Positions 1,527 to 45,374 of a DNA stretch of 58,919 nt are shown here, piece by piece. The notes beneath the pieces were generated by a model, which was not told the DNA's origin, searched no databases, and worked only from the letters and a program-made list of their open reading frames with translations. The position numbers and the translations under genes are program-made. Each line of letters begins with the position of its first letter. The stretch's first letter is position 1. This stretch comes from an uncultured Deferribacteres bacterium (GTDB lineage: Bacteria > Zhuqueibacterota > JdFR-76 > DREG01). The stretch is from the NCBI GenBank assembly GCA_913009825.1, contig CAJVYQ010000031.1, positions 1 to 58,919 of the forward strand. The letters run 5' to 3'.

Positions 1527-3320
1527 ATGAGCGAAGCAAAATTAGCGGAGCAGTATATCCCCGGCGGCAGTTTTCTTTATGAACATGTGACACCGGAAGA
1601 GATGTTTACACCTGAAGATTTTACCGATGAGCATAAAATGATCGCCGAGACCACCGAAGATTTTGTGGCTAAAGAAGTCGTTACGCAGGCGGATAAAATT
1701 GAGGAGAAAATTGAAGAACTCAGCGTGAGACTTTTGCGAAAAGCCGGAGAACTTGGCTTGTTAGCCGTGGATATTCCCGAAGAATACGGCGGATTGGGAT
1801 TGGATAAAACGTCATCCATCATCGTGGCGGAAAAAATTGGTAGAGCCGGTTCCTGGGCAGTAAGCTTTGGCGCCCATACCGGCATCGGAACGCTGCCTAT
1901 CGTTTACTTTGGTACAAAGGAGCAGAAGGACAAATATTTAGCTAAAATCGGTTCGGCTGAGTTGGTTTCCTCCTATTCCTTATCGGAACCGGGTTCCGGT
2001 TCGGATGCGCTTTCTGCCCGGACAACAGCTAACCTGAACGACGACGGCAAATATTATCTGTTGAACGGCACTAAAATGTGGTTGACCAACGCCGGCTGGG
2101 CCGATGTCTATATCACATTCGCCAAAGTGGATGGCGATAAATTTACCGCATTCATCATCGATAAAGGAACGCCGGGCGTTTCATTGGGCGCCGAAGAAAA
2201 CAAATTAGGGATTCATGGCTCTTCTACGCGGGAACTTCTACTGGACAATGCAAAAATACCGGTGGAGAACGTTTTGGGTGAAATCGACAAAGGACATAAA
2301 GTGGCGTTTAATATTTTGAACATCGGCCGTTTTAAATTGGGCGCCGAAGTGTTGGGCGCCATGAAAGAGATAACTACTCAGGCTTTAAAATATGCCATGG
2401 AACGGGAGCAATTTAATCAACCGATAGTTAGTTTCGGTTTGATTAAACATAAATTGGGTGAAATGGCCATTCGTTCCTTTATTTCGGAGAGTATGGTTTA
2501 CCGCACTTCCGGCCTGATCGATTCTATCCTGGAAAGCGTAACGCCGGGGAGTCCCAATTATGAGCAGGTTACTTTGAAGGGAATCGAGGAATATGCCACG
2601 GAATGTTCCATCATCAAAGTTTATGCCAGTGAAGCGTTGGATTATGTTGTAGATGAAGGCCTGCAGATTTACGGCGGGTACGGTTATTCGGAAGATTATC
2701 CCATGGCGCGCGCCTACCGGGATTCCCGGATCAACCGAATTTTTGAAGGGACAAACGAAATTAATCGCCTGCTGATGCCGGGTATGTTGATCAAACGGGC
2801 AACGAAAGGACAATTGCCCATTCTGCAGAAAGCTCAGGCATTGTTGGATGAAGTGTTGGGCTTTTCCATGCCGGAAGAACCGGAAGATGAATTTCTGGCG
2901 GAGGAAACCAAAATCGTGGAGAACGCAAAAAAAATTGCCCTGCTGATGATTGGCGGCGGCGTGCAGAAATTTATGGCCAAAATCGGTGACCAGCAGGAAA
3001 TTCTCGGCCATATTGCCGACATCATGATGGAAGTTTATGCCATGGAGAGTGTGCTGGTTCGCGTGAAAAAAATGGCGCAGAACCGGAGCGAAGAAGCTGT
3101 TTCCGTTTATGTGGATGTGGCGCAGACCTGTATCAATGATGCGATCAACCGCGTCGCTTTTTCCGCCATGCAAATATTGCCCATCATCGAAGAGGGCGAT
3201 ACGCTGCGCACTTATGTAACCATGCTGCGCCGGTTCACAAAACATACACCGCTCAACACGGCGGCCAGGCGCAGAAATATTGTGGCGCACATGATGGAAG
3301 CGGAAAAGTATAATTTGTAA
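1527..3320 (+). CDS. fadE: acyl-CoA dehydrogenase, long form
   Basis: FAD-dependent acyl-CoA dehydrogenase that introduces the alpha,beta double bond in the first step of beta-oxidation. At 597 residues it is longer than the ~380-residue short enzymes. Residues about 30-430 form the standard dehydrogenase domain (SSYSLSEPGSGSDA flavin/substrate motif, YGGYGYSEDYPMARAYRD) with catalytic Glu407 in FEGTNEINRL. The remaining ~170 residues are an extra helical C-terminal domain like that of VLCAD-type and Bacillus FadE-type proteins, which suggests membrane association or long-chain substrates. AGAGGTG precedes the ATG. It forms a pair with the upstream thiolase. Confidence 0.93.
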   Translation: MSEAKLAEQYIPGGSFLYEHVTPEEMFTPEDFTDEHKMIAETTEDFVAKEVVTQADKIEEKIEELSVRLLRKAGELGLLAVDIPEEYGGLGLDKTSSIIVAEKIGRAGSWAVSFGAHTGIGTLPIVYFGTKEQKDKYLAKIGSAELVSSYSLSEPGSGSDALSARTTANLNDDGKYYLLNGTKMWLTNAGWADVYITFAKVDGDKFTAFIIDKGTPGVSLGAEENKLGIHGSSTRELLLDNAKIPVENVLGEIDKGHKVAFNILNIGRFKLGAEVLGAMKEITTQALKYAMEREQFNQPIVSFGLIKHKLGEMAIRSFISESMVYRTSGLIDSILESVTPGSPNYEQVTLKGIEEYATECSIIKVYASEALDYVVDEGLQIYGGYGYSEDYPMARAYRDSRINRIFEGTNEINRLLMPGMLIKRATKGQLPILQKAQALLDEVLGFSMPEEPEDEFLAEETKIVENAKKIALLMIGGGVQKFMAKIGDQQEILGHIADIMMEVYAMESVLVRVKKMAQNRSEEAVSVYVDVAQTCINDAINRVAFSAMQILPIIEEGDTLRTYVTMLRRFTKHTPLNTAARRRNIVAHMMEAEKYNL

Positions 3321-3341
3321 ACAAAAGTAGGTAAACGATGT

Positions 3342-3378
3342 AAACCTTCCAGGTTTTCAAAACCTGGAAGGTTTTTTA
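3342..3378 (+). terminator. perfect palindrome with T-run after fadE (palindrome family AACCTTCCAGG)
   Basis: A 16-bp-arm palindrome reading AACCTTCCAGGTTTT then its complement, followed by TTTTTT, 22 bases after the fadE stop. It has the form of an intrinsic terminator. The same palindrome recurs near 40108-40143 and 41654-41688, so it is also a dispersed repeat that appears to have been used as a terminator here. Confidence 0.75.
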
Positions 3379-39428: not shown

Positions 39429-39767
39429 ATGGAATTGCTGAAAAAGTATCTTGATCTGAAAATAAATATCTCATTTATCGGTAATTCCGGCGAGATGAAA
39501 TCATTGGGCATCTCTCCCCGTTATATCCCGGAATCATTTGAATATCTGGACGAAATGGAGTTTTTGCTTGATTACAAACCGGAAATGAAAATTGTCTTCG
39601 CCGTGGCTGTTGAGGATGAAGTAATCAAGCGAATGATGTTCGGTTGGGCAGGCCCGGATGATGACGAAGAAGCATTCCATCCGTTGCAAGAAAAAGAATT
39701 GCAAAATTTTTTCACGAAAGAAGAAAAAACCTTGCTTACCTTCTTTGATCGACTGACGAAGGCTTAG
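39429..39767 (+). CDS. small hypothetical protein
   Basis: 112 residues, start ATG 39429 behind ACGGAG. Acidic, with MELLKKYLDLKINISFIGNSG and a closing FFTKEEKTLLTFFDRLTKA. No domain recognised and no signal peptide. Its TAG stop overlaps the 9-bp target duplication of the next element, which sits immediately downstream. A longer in-frame start at 39381 lacks a ribosome binding site. Confidence 0.65.
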   Translation: MELLKKYLDLKINISFIGNSGEMKSLGISPRYIPESFEYLDEMEFLLDYKPEMKIVFAVAVEDEVIKRMMFGWAGPDDDEEAFHPLQEKELQNFFTKEEKTLLTFFDRLTKA

Positions 39768-39774
39768 TTTATAT

Positions 39775-40004
39775 CAGTAATTTCCGGTTAGGTTTTTGCA
39801 ATTGGCAACATAGTCAAAAAAGAGAACAAACAAAAACGGTGTTTGCTATTCCGCCCCGTGGTGAACCACGAGACTAAGAATAGAAAGGATCCGCCTGAGG
39901 CAGACCCTGCGTTGTAAGCGCTATTTATGGCGCTTCCTATTTTTAGTCCCGTAGGACGAGCTTTGTAAATTACAGGGCTGCAAAAACCTAACCGGAAATC
40001 ACTG
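39775..40004. mobile_element. 230-bp MITE with 26-bp terminal repeats and 9-bp duplication
   Basis: Ends CAGTAATTTCCGGTTAGG... (39775-39800) and its complement (39979-40004), 26 bp with one mismatch. A perfect 9-bp direct repeat AGTTTATAT flanks it (39766-39774, 40005-40013). Nine-base duplications are made by several DDE transposase families. The interior has no coding capacity and includes a GAGACTAAGAATAG / CTATTTTTAGTC inverted pair. Confidence 0.9.
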
Positions 40005-40033
40005 AGTTTATATGGCAAAAAAAATAGTATGAT

Positions 40034-40097
40034 TTGACAATTTTAAAAACAATTTTTATACTACCAGGGTATTTTTAAAATTTATTTACAAAATACC
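40034..40097 (+). promoter_or_regulatory. promoter plus operator-like inverted repeat, unit 1
   Basis: TTGACA (40034-40039), 17-base spacer, TATACT (40057-40062): a near-consensus housekeeping promoter. Just downstream lies an inverted repeat GGTATTTT (40068-40075) / AAAATACC (40090-40097), overlapping the expected start site. The unit is repeated at 40206-40269. Confidence 0.65.
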
Positions 40098-40107
40098 TGC
40101 CTTCTTG

Positions 40108-40143
40108 AAACCTTCCAGGTTTTGAAAACCTTGAAGGTTTTTT
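40108..40143. repeat. AACCTTCCAGG palindrome, copy 2
   Basis: Palindrome AAACCTTCCAGGTTTT / AAAACCTTGAAGGTTT, one mismatch, followed by TTTTC. Related to 3342-3378. Preceded by ACCTGCCTTCTT, which also precedes the third copy downstream of the ATPase gene. Confidence 0.7.
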
Positions 40144-40205
40144 CAATGTCCCGTTTGTAAAACAGGATTAAATTTACCTTAACGTGTGGGGATAGATAAT
40201 ATTAT

Positions 40206-40269
40206 TTGACTATTTGCAAAATTATTTTTATATTACCATGGTAATTTTAAAATATATTTCAAAATTACC
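40206..40269 (+). promoter_or_regulatory. promoter plus operator-like inverted repeat, unit 2
   Basis: TTGACT (40206-40211), 17-base spacer, TATATT (40229-40234). An inverted repeat GGTAATTTT (40240-40248) / AAAATTACC (40261-40269) follows, and a 14-bp perfect palindrome ATTACCATGGTAAT spans 40232-40245. The ATPase ATG is only 12 bases downstream, so a protein bound here would block expression. Confidence 0.7.
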
Positions 40270-40280
40270 AGGTTAATAGC

Positions 40281-41618
40281 ATGCTTTCTACATTCAAACT
40301 TCAAAATCCCTGGCGACAATCCAATTATAAATTTGCAACTGAGCCCTATATTCACAGAAAAATTATTTCCGATCTGGTCGTACATCTTGACAAAAAAGAA
40401 ATCACTGTTATCGTCGGTTCCCGGCAGGTAGGCAAAACATTTGCCATAGAAAGATTAATTGAATATCTGATTACAGAAAAAACCATTGATCCCCGGCAAA
40501 TTTTCTATTTTAATTTTGATGCCTTTGATCTCATCGAATTTATCCAAAAGCAAACATCTTTTCTGGATTTCCTGCATACATACGGCAAACCAAACAGTAA
40601 ATTTTACGTATTTTTTGATGAGGCTCAAAGAATCCCCGATTGCGGTTTACTGTTAAAACAATATTACGACCTGGACCTACCAATAAAGATCATTGTCTCC
40701 GGCTCTTCCTCACTTGAAATCAAAGGACAGGTTAAAGAAACTCTTACCGGAAGAAAACGCTTGTTTGAAATGCTTCCGGTTTCATTTACGGAGTTTCTGG
40801 AATACAGAGGAGTAAATACGGGAATTACGCTTCTCAAAAAAGTAGAATTTGAAATGGAGATTTACCACCAAATGCTGGAAGAGTTTATTCTTTTTGGCGG
40901 ATATCCGGGCGTTGTTATATTAAAAGCCAAAGAGGAAAAAATTGCCGCTTTGGATGAAATTTACCGGTCGTACATTCAAAAAGATATCAGCGATTTTCTG
41001 AAGGTTCAGGATGTTTTGGGTTTTAACCGACTGGTACAATTTGTTGCAGCGCAGAATGCCGGATTATTTAACTTAAACGAAATATCAAAATCCATTTCTC
41101 TGTCGAGATATCAATTAAATCAATATGTTAAATTTTTAGAGGAAACCTATATTCTGAAATTGCTCAAACCTTTTTACATAAATTTGGGCAAAACAATAAT
41201 AAAAATGCCCAAGGTTTATTTTATAGATACCGGAATCAGGAATGTAGTGGTCAAACAGTTTAGCAGCTTAAAAACACGAGCCGATTTAGGACAGATTGTT
41301 GAAAATTTTGTTTTTTCTGAGCTCATCAAATTTTTAGACATGGACAGATTGTGGTTTTACCGCACAACCACAGGTGCTGAAGTTGATTTTTGTTTTGGCT
41401 TTGTGGAGGCATTAAATTTTATCGAAGTGAAATATTCCGCCGGGAAACAAAGGTTGATACCAAAAGTTTTTAAATCTCTCATCGAAAAACTTAATGTAAA
41501 TAAATGTTTTGTTTTGACTAAATCCTATATTGATAAAAAATCCACGGCCAATGTCCCTGTATATTTCAGCCCGGTTTGGGGTTTGCCGGATTTAATCAGG
41601 AATTATTTTGGAGAATAA
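40281..41618 (+). CDS. AAA ATPase with C-terminal DUF4143 nuclease-like domain
   Basis: 445-residue protein of the widespread AAA_14/DUF4143 family. Walker A GSRQVGKT at 46-53, Walker B-like FYVFFDEAQRIPD near 112, a sensor-like IVSGSSSLEIKGQ, a winged-helix-like region about 240-290 (RLVQFVAAQNAG, SLSRYQLNQYV) and a C-terminal PD-(D/E)xK-like core GAEVDF...FIEVKYS. The cellular role of the family is unclear; defence or DNA transactions are often suggested. It stands alone, A+T rich, between two copies of a palindrome and behind two promoter/operator units, so tight self-regulation is likely. Confidence 0.85.
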   Translation: MLSTFKLQNPWRQSNYKFATEPYIHRKIISDLVVHLDKKEITVIVGSRQVGKTFAIERLIEYLITEKTIDPRQIFYFNFDAFDLIEFIQKQTSFLDFLHTYGKPNSKFYVFFDEAQRIPDCGLLLKQYYDLDLPIKIIVSGSSSLEIKGQVKETLTGRKRLFEMLPVSFTEFLEYRGVNTGITLLKKVEFEMEIYHQMLEEFILFGGYPGVVILKAKEEKIAALDEIYRSYIQKDISDFLKVQDVLGFNRLVQFVAAQNAGLFNLNEISKSISLSRYQLNQYVKFLEETYILKLLKPFYINLGKTIIKMPKVYFIDTGIRNVVVKQFSSLKTRADLGQIVENFVFSELIKFLDMDRLWFYRTTTGAEVDFCFGFVEALNFIEVKYSAGKQRLIPKVFKSLIEKLNVNKCFVLTKSYIDKKSTANVPVYFSPVWGLPDLIRNYFGE

Positions 41619-43864: not shown

Positions 43865-44950
43865 ATGGAAGGTTATTTAAACGTCAGCGAAGCAGCTAAA
43901 TTATTAGGTGTTAACACAGAAACTCTCCGGCGATGGGATAAATCCGGGAAATTCACTTCTTCCAGAAATCCAATAAACAATTACCGGGTTTACAATATTG
44001 AAAAGGTTCATCATTTTATCAAAGAAATTCAATTGCAACTGGAATTTGGGACAAAGATAAAAGAAGTTGAAAAAGAGAATAGAAATATTCCGTTTTTTGA
44101 AACTCAGCACGGAGCGCTATATAATTTGGATGCAATCGCATTTTTAAAAGCTATCGACAATGAAAGTATAGATCTCATTTTTGCAGATCCTCCGTGTAAC
44201 ATTAAAAAAGCTGAATGGGATTCCTTCGCATCGCAACAGCAATATGTCGAATGGAGCCTCCGGTGGATAAAAGAGGCGCATAGGATTCTAAAGCCAACCG
44301 GAACATTATATGTATGTGGCTTTTCAGAAATTCTCGCCGATATAAAATGGGCGGCAAATCACTTATTTAAAGGTTGTAAATGGCTTGTTTGGTATTATCG
44401 CAATAAAGCTAATTTAGGCAATGACTGGGGGAGATCCCATGAAAGCCTTCTGCATTTTAGAAAAAGTAAACAATTTATATCAAATATTGATAATGTCAGA
44501 ATCCCCTACAATGCTCATACCCTAAAATATCCCAAACGTCCACAGGCACAAACTTCTCAGTATAACAATGGAAAAGACAAAAAGTACATTTGGGAACCAA
44601 ATCCACAAGGGGCCAAGCCGAAGGATGTGTTTGAAATCCCAACTCTGTCAAATGGTTCATGGGAAAAAACCAACCATACAACACAAAAGCCGATTGAACT
44701 TGTAAAAAAGTGTATTTTGGCATCTTCAAATCCGGGAGATATCGTAGTAGATCCCTTTGGTGGTTCCGGGACAACCTACGCAGTAGCAGAGGCATTTAAT
44801 CGAAAATGGCTCGGAACAGACTTGAATAAAGAGTATTGTGAAATTTCAAAAAAACGCTTATTAGACAAAAACCACATTGCCAGAATATCATCTGGAAAAG
44901 ATGAAGCTGAAGCGCTTGAGCGCAGAAAAAAATTACGCACTATCCAGTAA
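43865..44950 (+). CDS. DNA methyltransferase with N-terminal MerR-type helix-turn-helix
   Basis: 361-residue amino-methyltransferase of the beta-type motif order. Residues 4-52 form a MerR/excisionase-like DNA-binding domain (YLNVSEAAKLLGVNTETLRRWDKSGK). The catalytic motif IV is ADPPC at 107-111 (DPPY is usual) and the SAM-binding motif I is DPFGGSGTT at 296-304, near the C-terminus. TTQKPIELVKKCIL precedes motif I. CGCAGGTGAAAG precedes the ATG. It is A+T richer than the core genes and overlaps the next, convergent gene by 18 bases. Methylation of adenine-N6 or cytosine-N4 is expected; sequence specificity is unknown. Confidence 0.88.
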   Translation: MEGYLNVSEAAKLLGVNTETLRRWDKSGKFTSSRNPINNYRVYNIEKVHHFIKEIQLQLEFGTKIKEVEKENRNIPFFETQHGALYNLDAIAFLKAIDNESIDLIFADPPCNIKKAEWDSFASQQQYVEWSLRWIKEAHRILKPTGTLYVCGFSEILADIKWAANHLFKGCKWLVWYYRNKANLGNDWGRSHESLLHFRKSKQFISNIDNVRIPYNAHTLKYPKRPQAQTSQYNNGKDKKYIWEPNPQGAKPKDVFEIPTLSNGSWEKTNHTTQKPIELVKKCILASSNPGDIVVDPFGGSGTTYAVAEAFNRKWLGTDLNKEYCEISKKRLLDKNHIARISSGKDEAEALERRKKLRTIQ

Positions 44951-45277
44951 TTTCCAGATATCCTCAAGAATAAATTGAGAAAATGGGAAAATATGTTGAT
45001 TATATGGTGCTATTAGAGCTTTTTTAGGAATATCCAGATAATAGTATCCTTCTAACCGAGCGAGAAATCTTGTATACACCATAAAAAGATATTTATTAAA
45101 TGGACGAATTCGTTTAGTACTGCCGGCAGTTGTTGATGAACAAATGAGGTACTCATGATATACCACTTTTTCATCGATAACAGCAGGCATATATTGCAAA
45201 ATACGATCAGCAATATTTTTAAATTCCTCAAGTCTTATCTTAGAGGATTGGAGATCTTGTGTTAATGTTAAAGTCAT
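44933..45277 (-). CDS. small hypothetical protein convergent with the methyltransferase
   Basis: 114 residues from CAT at 45275-45277 (AGGAAA upstream on its strand). Sequence begins MTLTLTQDLQSSKIRLEEFK and includes DEKVVYHEYLICSST and FLARLEGYYYLDIPKKAL. No catalytic motif recognised. Its 3' end overlaps the methyltransferase 3' end by 18 bases, an arrangement seen in restriction-modification pairs, but the protein is short for a restriction enzyme and lacks a visible PD-(D/E)xK or HNH motif. A partner role is inference only. Confidence 0.6.
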   Translation of the reverse strand: MTLTLTQDLQSSKIRLEEFKNIADRILQYMPAVIDEKVVYHEYLICSSTTAGSTKRIRPFNKYLFMVYTRFLARLEGYYYLDIPKKALIAPYNQHIFPFSQFILEDIWKLLDSA

Positions 45278-45374
45278 AAACTTTCCTGTGTAGAATTTTT
45301 TCCAATACAATGCGAGGACCCCAATGAACAAATCCTTTTTTAAATATACAAATACAGAAATACTACAGCGGCTA

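Follow-up and report, generated by a model that had tools for sequence, protein, structure and literature searches.

Private palindromes before DUF4143 ATPase-nuclease genes as candidate self-operators

Self-repression through palindromes is an old theme: in type II toxin-antitoxin systems, a harmful gene is held low by its product, which binds to palindromes at the promoter it is made from. Control of defence genes by DNA-binding proteins is also known. In passages of three papers, the WYL-domain regulators BrxR and CapW are described as separate DNA-binding proteins that control defence operons (PMC9122601, PMC9122588, PMC9122589), such that regulation of defence genes by separate WYL regulators is already on record (PMC9122601, PMC9122588). 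The described family closest to the gene analyzed here is PDC-S01, a candidate defence family represented by a PADLOC model and counted in PMC12988326, passages of which present a widespread single gene for an ATPase with a PD-(D/E)XK nuclease, the fourth most common defence family in prokaryotes, with most such candidates awaiting experimental validation. Those passages give nothing on regulation, and the operator rule proposed below is an addition to them. In the open-access literature searched, DUF4143 was named only in a Thermus study (PMC4406477), and no earlier report of an operator rule or of DUF4143 regulation was found.

The window, the whole 58,919-nt stretch of DNA analyzed here, carries a gene of the same architecture (Table 1). 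Its 445-aa product matched Pfam profiles PF13173 (E 1.6e-31) and PF13635 (E 1.2e-36) and, over most of its length, the PADLOC PDC-S01 model (E 3.1e-83; residues 24-404, profile positions 2-359 of 375), which places it in that family. Invariant across an alignment of 82 homologues were G46, R48, G51, and K52 of Walker A, D113 and E114 of Walker B, and E367, D369, and K384. A fusion of an ATPase to a PD-(D/E)XK nuclease, as in PDC-S01, is thus predicted, the nuclease part from PMC12988326 and a reading of the motif. A confident AlphaFold2 model (mean pLDDT 93.6) contains helices at 245-257, 265-272, and 276-288 and a strand at 292-295, which form the winged-helix region. Searches of solved structures by sequence and of NCBIfam profiles with the product gave no match, and a search for close orthologues in the species genome collection found only two, at 54%. 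With Foldseek, the best solved matches were Orc1/Cdc6-like and CED-4-like AAA+ proteins, all partial (TM <=0.40 by query length) and in some cases with structures solved on DNA. Among them, archaeal Orc1/Cdc6 (PDB 2qby, 2v1u) likewise combines AAA+ with a winged helix that binds repeated DNA sites but serves origin recognition and is without a nuclease domain.

Table 1. Features at the DUF4143 ATPase-nuclease gene, in window coordinates
Feature	Position	Strand	Basis or remark
Promoter P1, TTGACA-17-TATACT, upstream unit (unit 1)	40034..40062	+	consensus match
Palindrome 1, unit 1, ACTACC-AG-GGTATT, degenerate	40060..40073	.	repeat comparison
Palindrome 2, unit 1, AATACC-TG-CCTTCT; left half retained, right half lost	40092..40105	.	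consensus mismatches
REP-like hairpin and T run, terminator-like, between units 1 and 2	40108..40145	+	dispersed in genome
Promoter P2, TTGACT-17-TATATT (unit 2)	40206..40234	+	consensus match; TTGAC spacing shared with L015, L013, L012, L016, and unit 1
Candidate operator palindrome 1, unit 2, ATTACC-AT-GGTAAT	40232..40245	.	overlaps -10 box
30-bp inverted repeat (inner half-sites of unit 2 palindromes)	40240..40269	.	repeat comparison
Candidate operator palindrome 2, unit 2, ATTACC-AG-GTTAAT	40264..40277	.	centre 32 bp from palindrome 1
CDS, 445 aa, AAA_14 ATPase and DUF4143 (winged helix, then PD-(D/E)XK-like nuclease domain)	40281..41618	+	Pfam, PADLOC
Winged-helix region, residues 245-300, proposed operator reader	41013..41180	+	AlphaFold2 model
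Second REP-like hairpin copy, just past stop codon	41641..41688	+	90% identity to the copy after unit 1, E 9.7e-11

Two versions of a promoter-palindrome unit precede the gene. Nucleotides 40024-40097 and 40196-40269 are 74-nt direct repeats, 81% identical and 172 bp apart, with a score that lies 17 sd over that of dinucleotide shuffles and exceeds 300/300 of them. The original prediction had given each unit a promoter with a 17-bp spacer and a 30-bp inverted repeat, and all four elements were recovered: P1 and P2 score 11/12 and 10/12, respectively, against the consensus, and the GGTA...TACC repeats GGTATTTTTAAAATTTATTTACAAAATACC (40068-40097) and GGTAATTTTAAAATATATTTCAAAATTACC (40240-40269) occupy the equivalent place in each unit. 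The second repeat does lie near the start codon, as had been claimed, though it ends 11 and not 12 bases before the ATG at 40281. The same consensus scan returned 13 promoter-like sites where 7.9 +/- 3.0 were expected, so that the promoter matches alone are little proof; P1 and P2 draw their support from the distance between TTGAC and palindrome, which is kept in orthologues of the window's clade (L015, L013, L012, and L016).

The 30-bp repeat proved to be the inner half of a larger design that the earlier note had missed, namely, two 14-bp palindromes with centres 32 bp apart. In unit 2 this spacing is exactly 32 bp, or three helical turns, the pair adjoins the ATG, the inverted repeat stands well above chance (z 5.9, p 0.002), and the two palindromes together deviate from their consensus at 1 position, compared to 7 in unit 1. 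Sites related to palindrome 1 occupy the equivalent position in L015, L012, L013, and L016 and recur in L019 and L020 with a shifted promoter. In the latter two, at 38-39% protein identity, the 32-bp pair itself is found, the half-site TTACC having become TAACC. At unit 2, a palindrome overlaps the gene's own promoter as recognized by consensus, and we propose from these sequence features that unit 2 (40206-40280) is the promoter-operator of the AAA_14-DUF4143 gene.

Unit 1 fits this design less well. Its best-scoring inverted repeat is a different and weak stretch (z 2.5, p 0.03), no second promoter-palindrome unit was present in the close homologues checked, and a terminator-like hairpin separates the unit from the gene; the idea that two control units serve one gene is not supported on these grounds. 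Unit 1 is probably the relic of an old tandem duplication. The simplest history would be that unit, gene, and REP-like hairpin were duplicated together and the first ORF was then lost, with no remnant of it left. The REP copy behind unit 1 finds its best genome match elsewhere in the copy behind the ATPase gene, and both share a short flank, CTGCCTTCTT, before which the matches of other copies stop; a best match of this kind and a short unique flank are what deletion of an ORF copy would leave. That unit 1 still works, either as a second control unit of the gene or as the source of a short terminated RNA, is an unlikely alternative: it has kept its promoter and most of palindrome 1 but has lost palindrome 2, is cut off from the gene by the hairpin, and lacks a counterpart bearing palindromes in close homologues. 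The REP-like hairpin, AAACCTTCCAGGTTTTGAAAACCTGGAAGGTTT, lies at 3342-3377 in addition to the two places given in Table 1 and occurs at tens of places on many contigs genome-wide. A MITE-like insertion (39766-40013) sits directly upstream of unit 1, with 27-nt terminal inverted repeats (96%) and flanked by an apparent 9-bp target duplication, AGTTTATAT.

Upstream inverted repeats proved to be common in the family. DUF4143 is present in 67/82 genomes of the phylum, with 11 matches in the window's genome. We took 129 DUF4143 genes, all from this phylum save two from other bacteria and with start codons assigned by rule, and scored the strongest inverted repeat within 100 bp upstream of each start relative to dinucleotide shuffles; 146 other genes from related genomes served as controls, as did the region from -300 to -200 of the DUF4143 genes themselves. 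In a first run, p<=0.05 was reached by 59% of the 129 genes and 12% of controls; in a second, z>=3 was reached by 59/129 (46%) versus 7/146 (5%), and by 11/125 (9%) further upstream, at -300 to -200; the enrichment had a Mann-Whitney p of 2e-19 and a Fisher p of 2e-16. The pattern held after thinning to <40% protein identity, with 11/30 at z>=3. The repeats are centred at a median of 30 bp upstream and have a median arm of 15 and spacer of 7. Direct repeats were enriched more weakly (12/129 versus 2/146 controls), and about half of the DUF4143 genes were without a strong inverted or direct repeat by the same measure. Among plasmid-borne relatives from other phyla, with annotated starts, 8/26 reached p<=0.05; strong palindromes were found in relatives from Moraxella bovis (21-bp arms, z 13.5), Treponema succinifaciens (19-bp arms, z 12.1), Listeria seeligeri (z 9.1), and Azotobacter (z 6.2). 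In two members from Thermus-family plasmids (L217, L219), the palindrome search returned nothing significant.

Some members show other arrangements. Five (L187, L198, L201, L211, and L214) have no palindrome; inspected by eye, they seem to bear directly repeated half-sites ahead of the start codon, which may represent a second class of operator. Palindromes resembling CCTTGCA...TGCAAGG are common to family members from viral contigs, alphaproteobacterial plasmids, and this phylum (L205, L208, L218, L215, and L062) and end at or beside the ATG, suggesting leaderless transcripts with the promoter built into the palindrome. In the Desulfobacula MAG contig L012, two DUF4143 genes face each other (602-1951 and 2121-3341). 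An archaeal plasmid member (L178) has a viperin-family antiviral gene and an ISH3 transposase in its vicinity.

When members are arranged in protein-tree order, palindromes are common to tree neighbours and not to distant members. Operator similarity climbs with protein identity, while the flanking DNA of the same pairs shows no such similarity (p 1.7e-8 to 2.3e-10), and pairs with 50-85% identical AAA domains have like operators and unlike flanks of equal length; the site is thus conserved with the protein while its surroundings are not. Within the window's genome, the expectation that the same arms would stand before other DUF4143 genes held in altered form: identical arms were not found, but in front of several paralogues stands an operator-like repeat with its own, different sequence. 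The paralogues' sites are unrelated to one another except for one weak pair (L003/L006, z 3.1). A search of the genome turned up no convincing further instance of the 30-bp arms or the unit 2 sequence, and hence no indication of a wider regulon. On this comparative evidence we propose that in many DUF4143/PDC-S01 genes the promoter is overlaid by a private palindrome specific to the subfamily and that the window holds a local case.

Which protein reads these sites is partly a question of what lies beside them. No neighbouring gene family recurred beyond two small groups in 41 loci, and the sites are in this sense independent of neighbouring genes. No antitoxin gene therefore accompanies the single gene: the palindromes over its own promoter and the harmful gene proposed to be held low resemble a type II toxin-antitoxin system, but there is no partner, and one protein would be both repressor and effector. 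Nor is there a widely recurring neighbour in these loci that could be a WYL regulator beside the effector, and no WYL domain was found among the window neighbours scanned with Pfam (part of the flanking ORFs). As far as passages of the BrxR and CapW papers describe them, those systems likewise place defence genes under transcriptional control by a DNA-binding protein, yet there the regulator is separate, whereas here no separate regulator gene is seen and the effector itself has a winged helix. A DNA methyltransferase with an N-terminal MerR-type helix-turn-helix is encoded at 43865-44950, convergent to a 132-aa ORF at 44933-45331 with a weak restriction-enzyme match (E 0.004); the two, 2 kb from the ATPase, may form a restriction-modification pair.

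Since no neighbour recurs widely and the sole constant is the winged-helix protein, we infer autorepression. The palindromes might instead be operators of one or several separate host repressors, to which we give only a small chance. In its favour, attribution to the winged helix could not be separated from overall relatedness: with the identity of the other domains removed, operator similarity had a partial r of 0.06 with the winged helix and 0.13 with the AAA domain. Against it, the sites track protein relatedness across genera and no regulator gene recurs beside them; because they are specific to subfamilies and to paralogues, with the one weak pair as the exception, many separate host repressors would be needed.

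Because the palindromes overlap promoter elements, we read them as DNA operators. The inverted repeats could in principle act as RNA, through a leader hairpin that controls translation or termination, and folding of the 30-bp repeat is possible in the P2 transcript (65 nt, -10.2 kcal/mol; z -2.3). Palindrome 1, though, lies over the -10 box, which would leave its left half outside the transcript; in the Treponema member L184 the palindrome starts right after TTGAC and covers the expected -10, and in other members it seems to span -35 to -10 and to end at the ATG. The fixed 32-bp helical spacing also better suits DNA binding, and the position over the promoter makes an RNA function very improbable. 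We give a similarly low probability to a role other than operator, in which the palindrome would be cut by the nuclease itself or would serve in mobility or replication. The conserved PD-(D/E)XK-like signature, the origin-binding Orc1/Cdc6 proteins among the nearest solved folds, and the fact that long palindromes are typical of nuclease and recombinase sites would suit such a role, but the site stands by the promoter and, as a rule, has no further copy after the gene (mean z 0.22; z>=3 in 4/57), a result that also rules against mobile-element ends. The palindrome could be a candidate operator and a cleavage site at once.

Autorepression of a defence-like gene, as originally predicted, gained good comparative support from the homologues' promoter-overlapping palindromes, far above controls, and from the PDC-S01 match, and we regard it as likely that each such gene specifies an ATPase-nuclease that represses its own synthesis through a private operator over the promoter. 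The mechanism that we infer has the protein as binder, its binding as repressive, and a signal for release. The gene's own product would bind the two palindromes, 32 bp apart on one face of the DNA, as an oligomer via the winged helix that joins its ATPase domain to its nuclease domain, and would block RNA polymerase, such that a potentially harmful ATPase-nuclease is kept low. Release may follow from nucleotide state, foreign DNA, or titration of the protein. A hint of inducibility comes from Thermus TT_P0211 (AAA_14, DUF4143), whose RNA was 6.6-fold higher in plasmid-bearing cells and only with Argonaute present (PMC4406477); this rise, not the aim of that study, would fit release of self-control, and since L217 and L219 had no significant palindrome, the hint rests on no seen operator.

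As a feature general to a family of single-gene ATPase-nucleases, a private operator appears to be new. A cis site readable from sequence offers a ready binding assay and reporter for each member, and it might account for activity that went undetected in clones of such genes lacking the native promoter. More tentatively, and with less than even confidence, PDC-S01/DUF4143 may be a one-protein immune switch, in which one ATPase-nuclease doubles as the private repressor of its own gene and the operator belongs to the sensor. Displacement of the enzyme from its promoter, by foreign DNA, nucleotide state, or a viral protein, would both arm the nuclease and raise its synthesis, and divergence of operator and winged helix would insulate paralogues in one cell. 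The operator hints at how a self-harming nuclease may be held in check without a partner gene, suggesting that each member of the family would switch itself off until needed.
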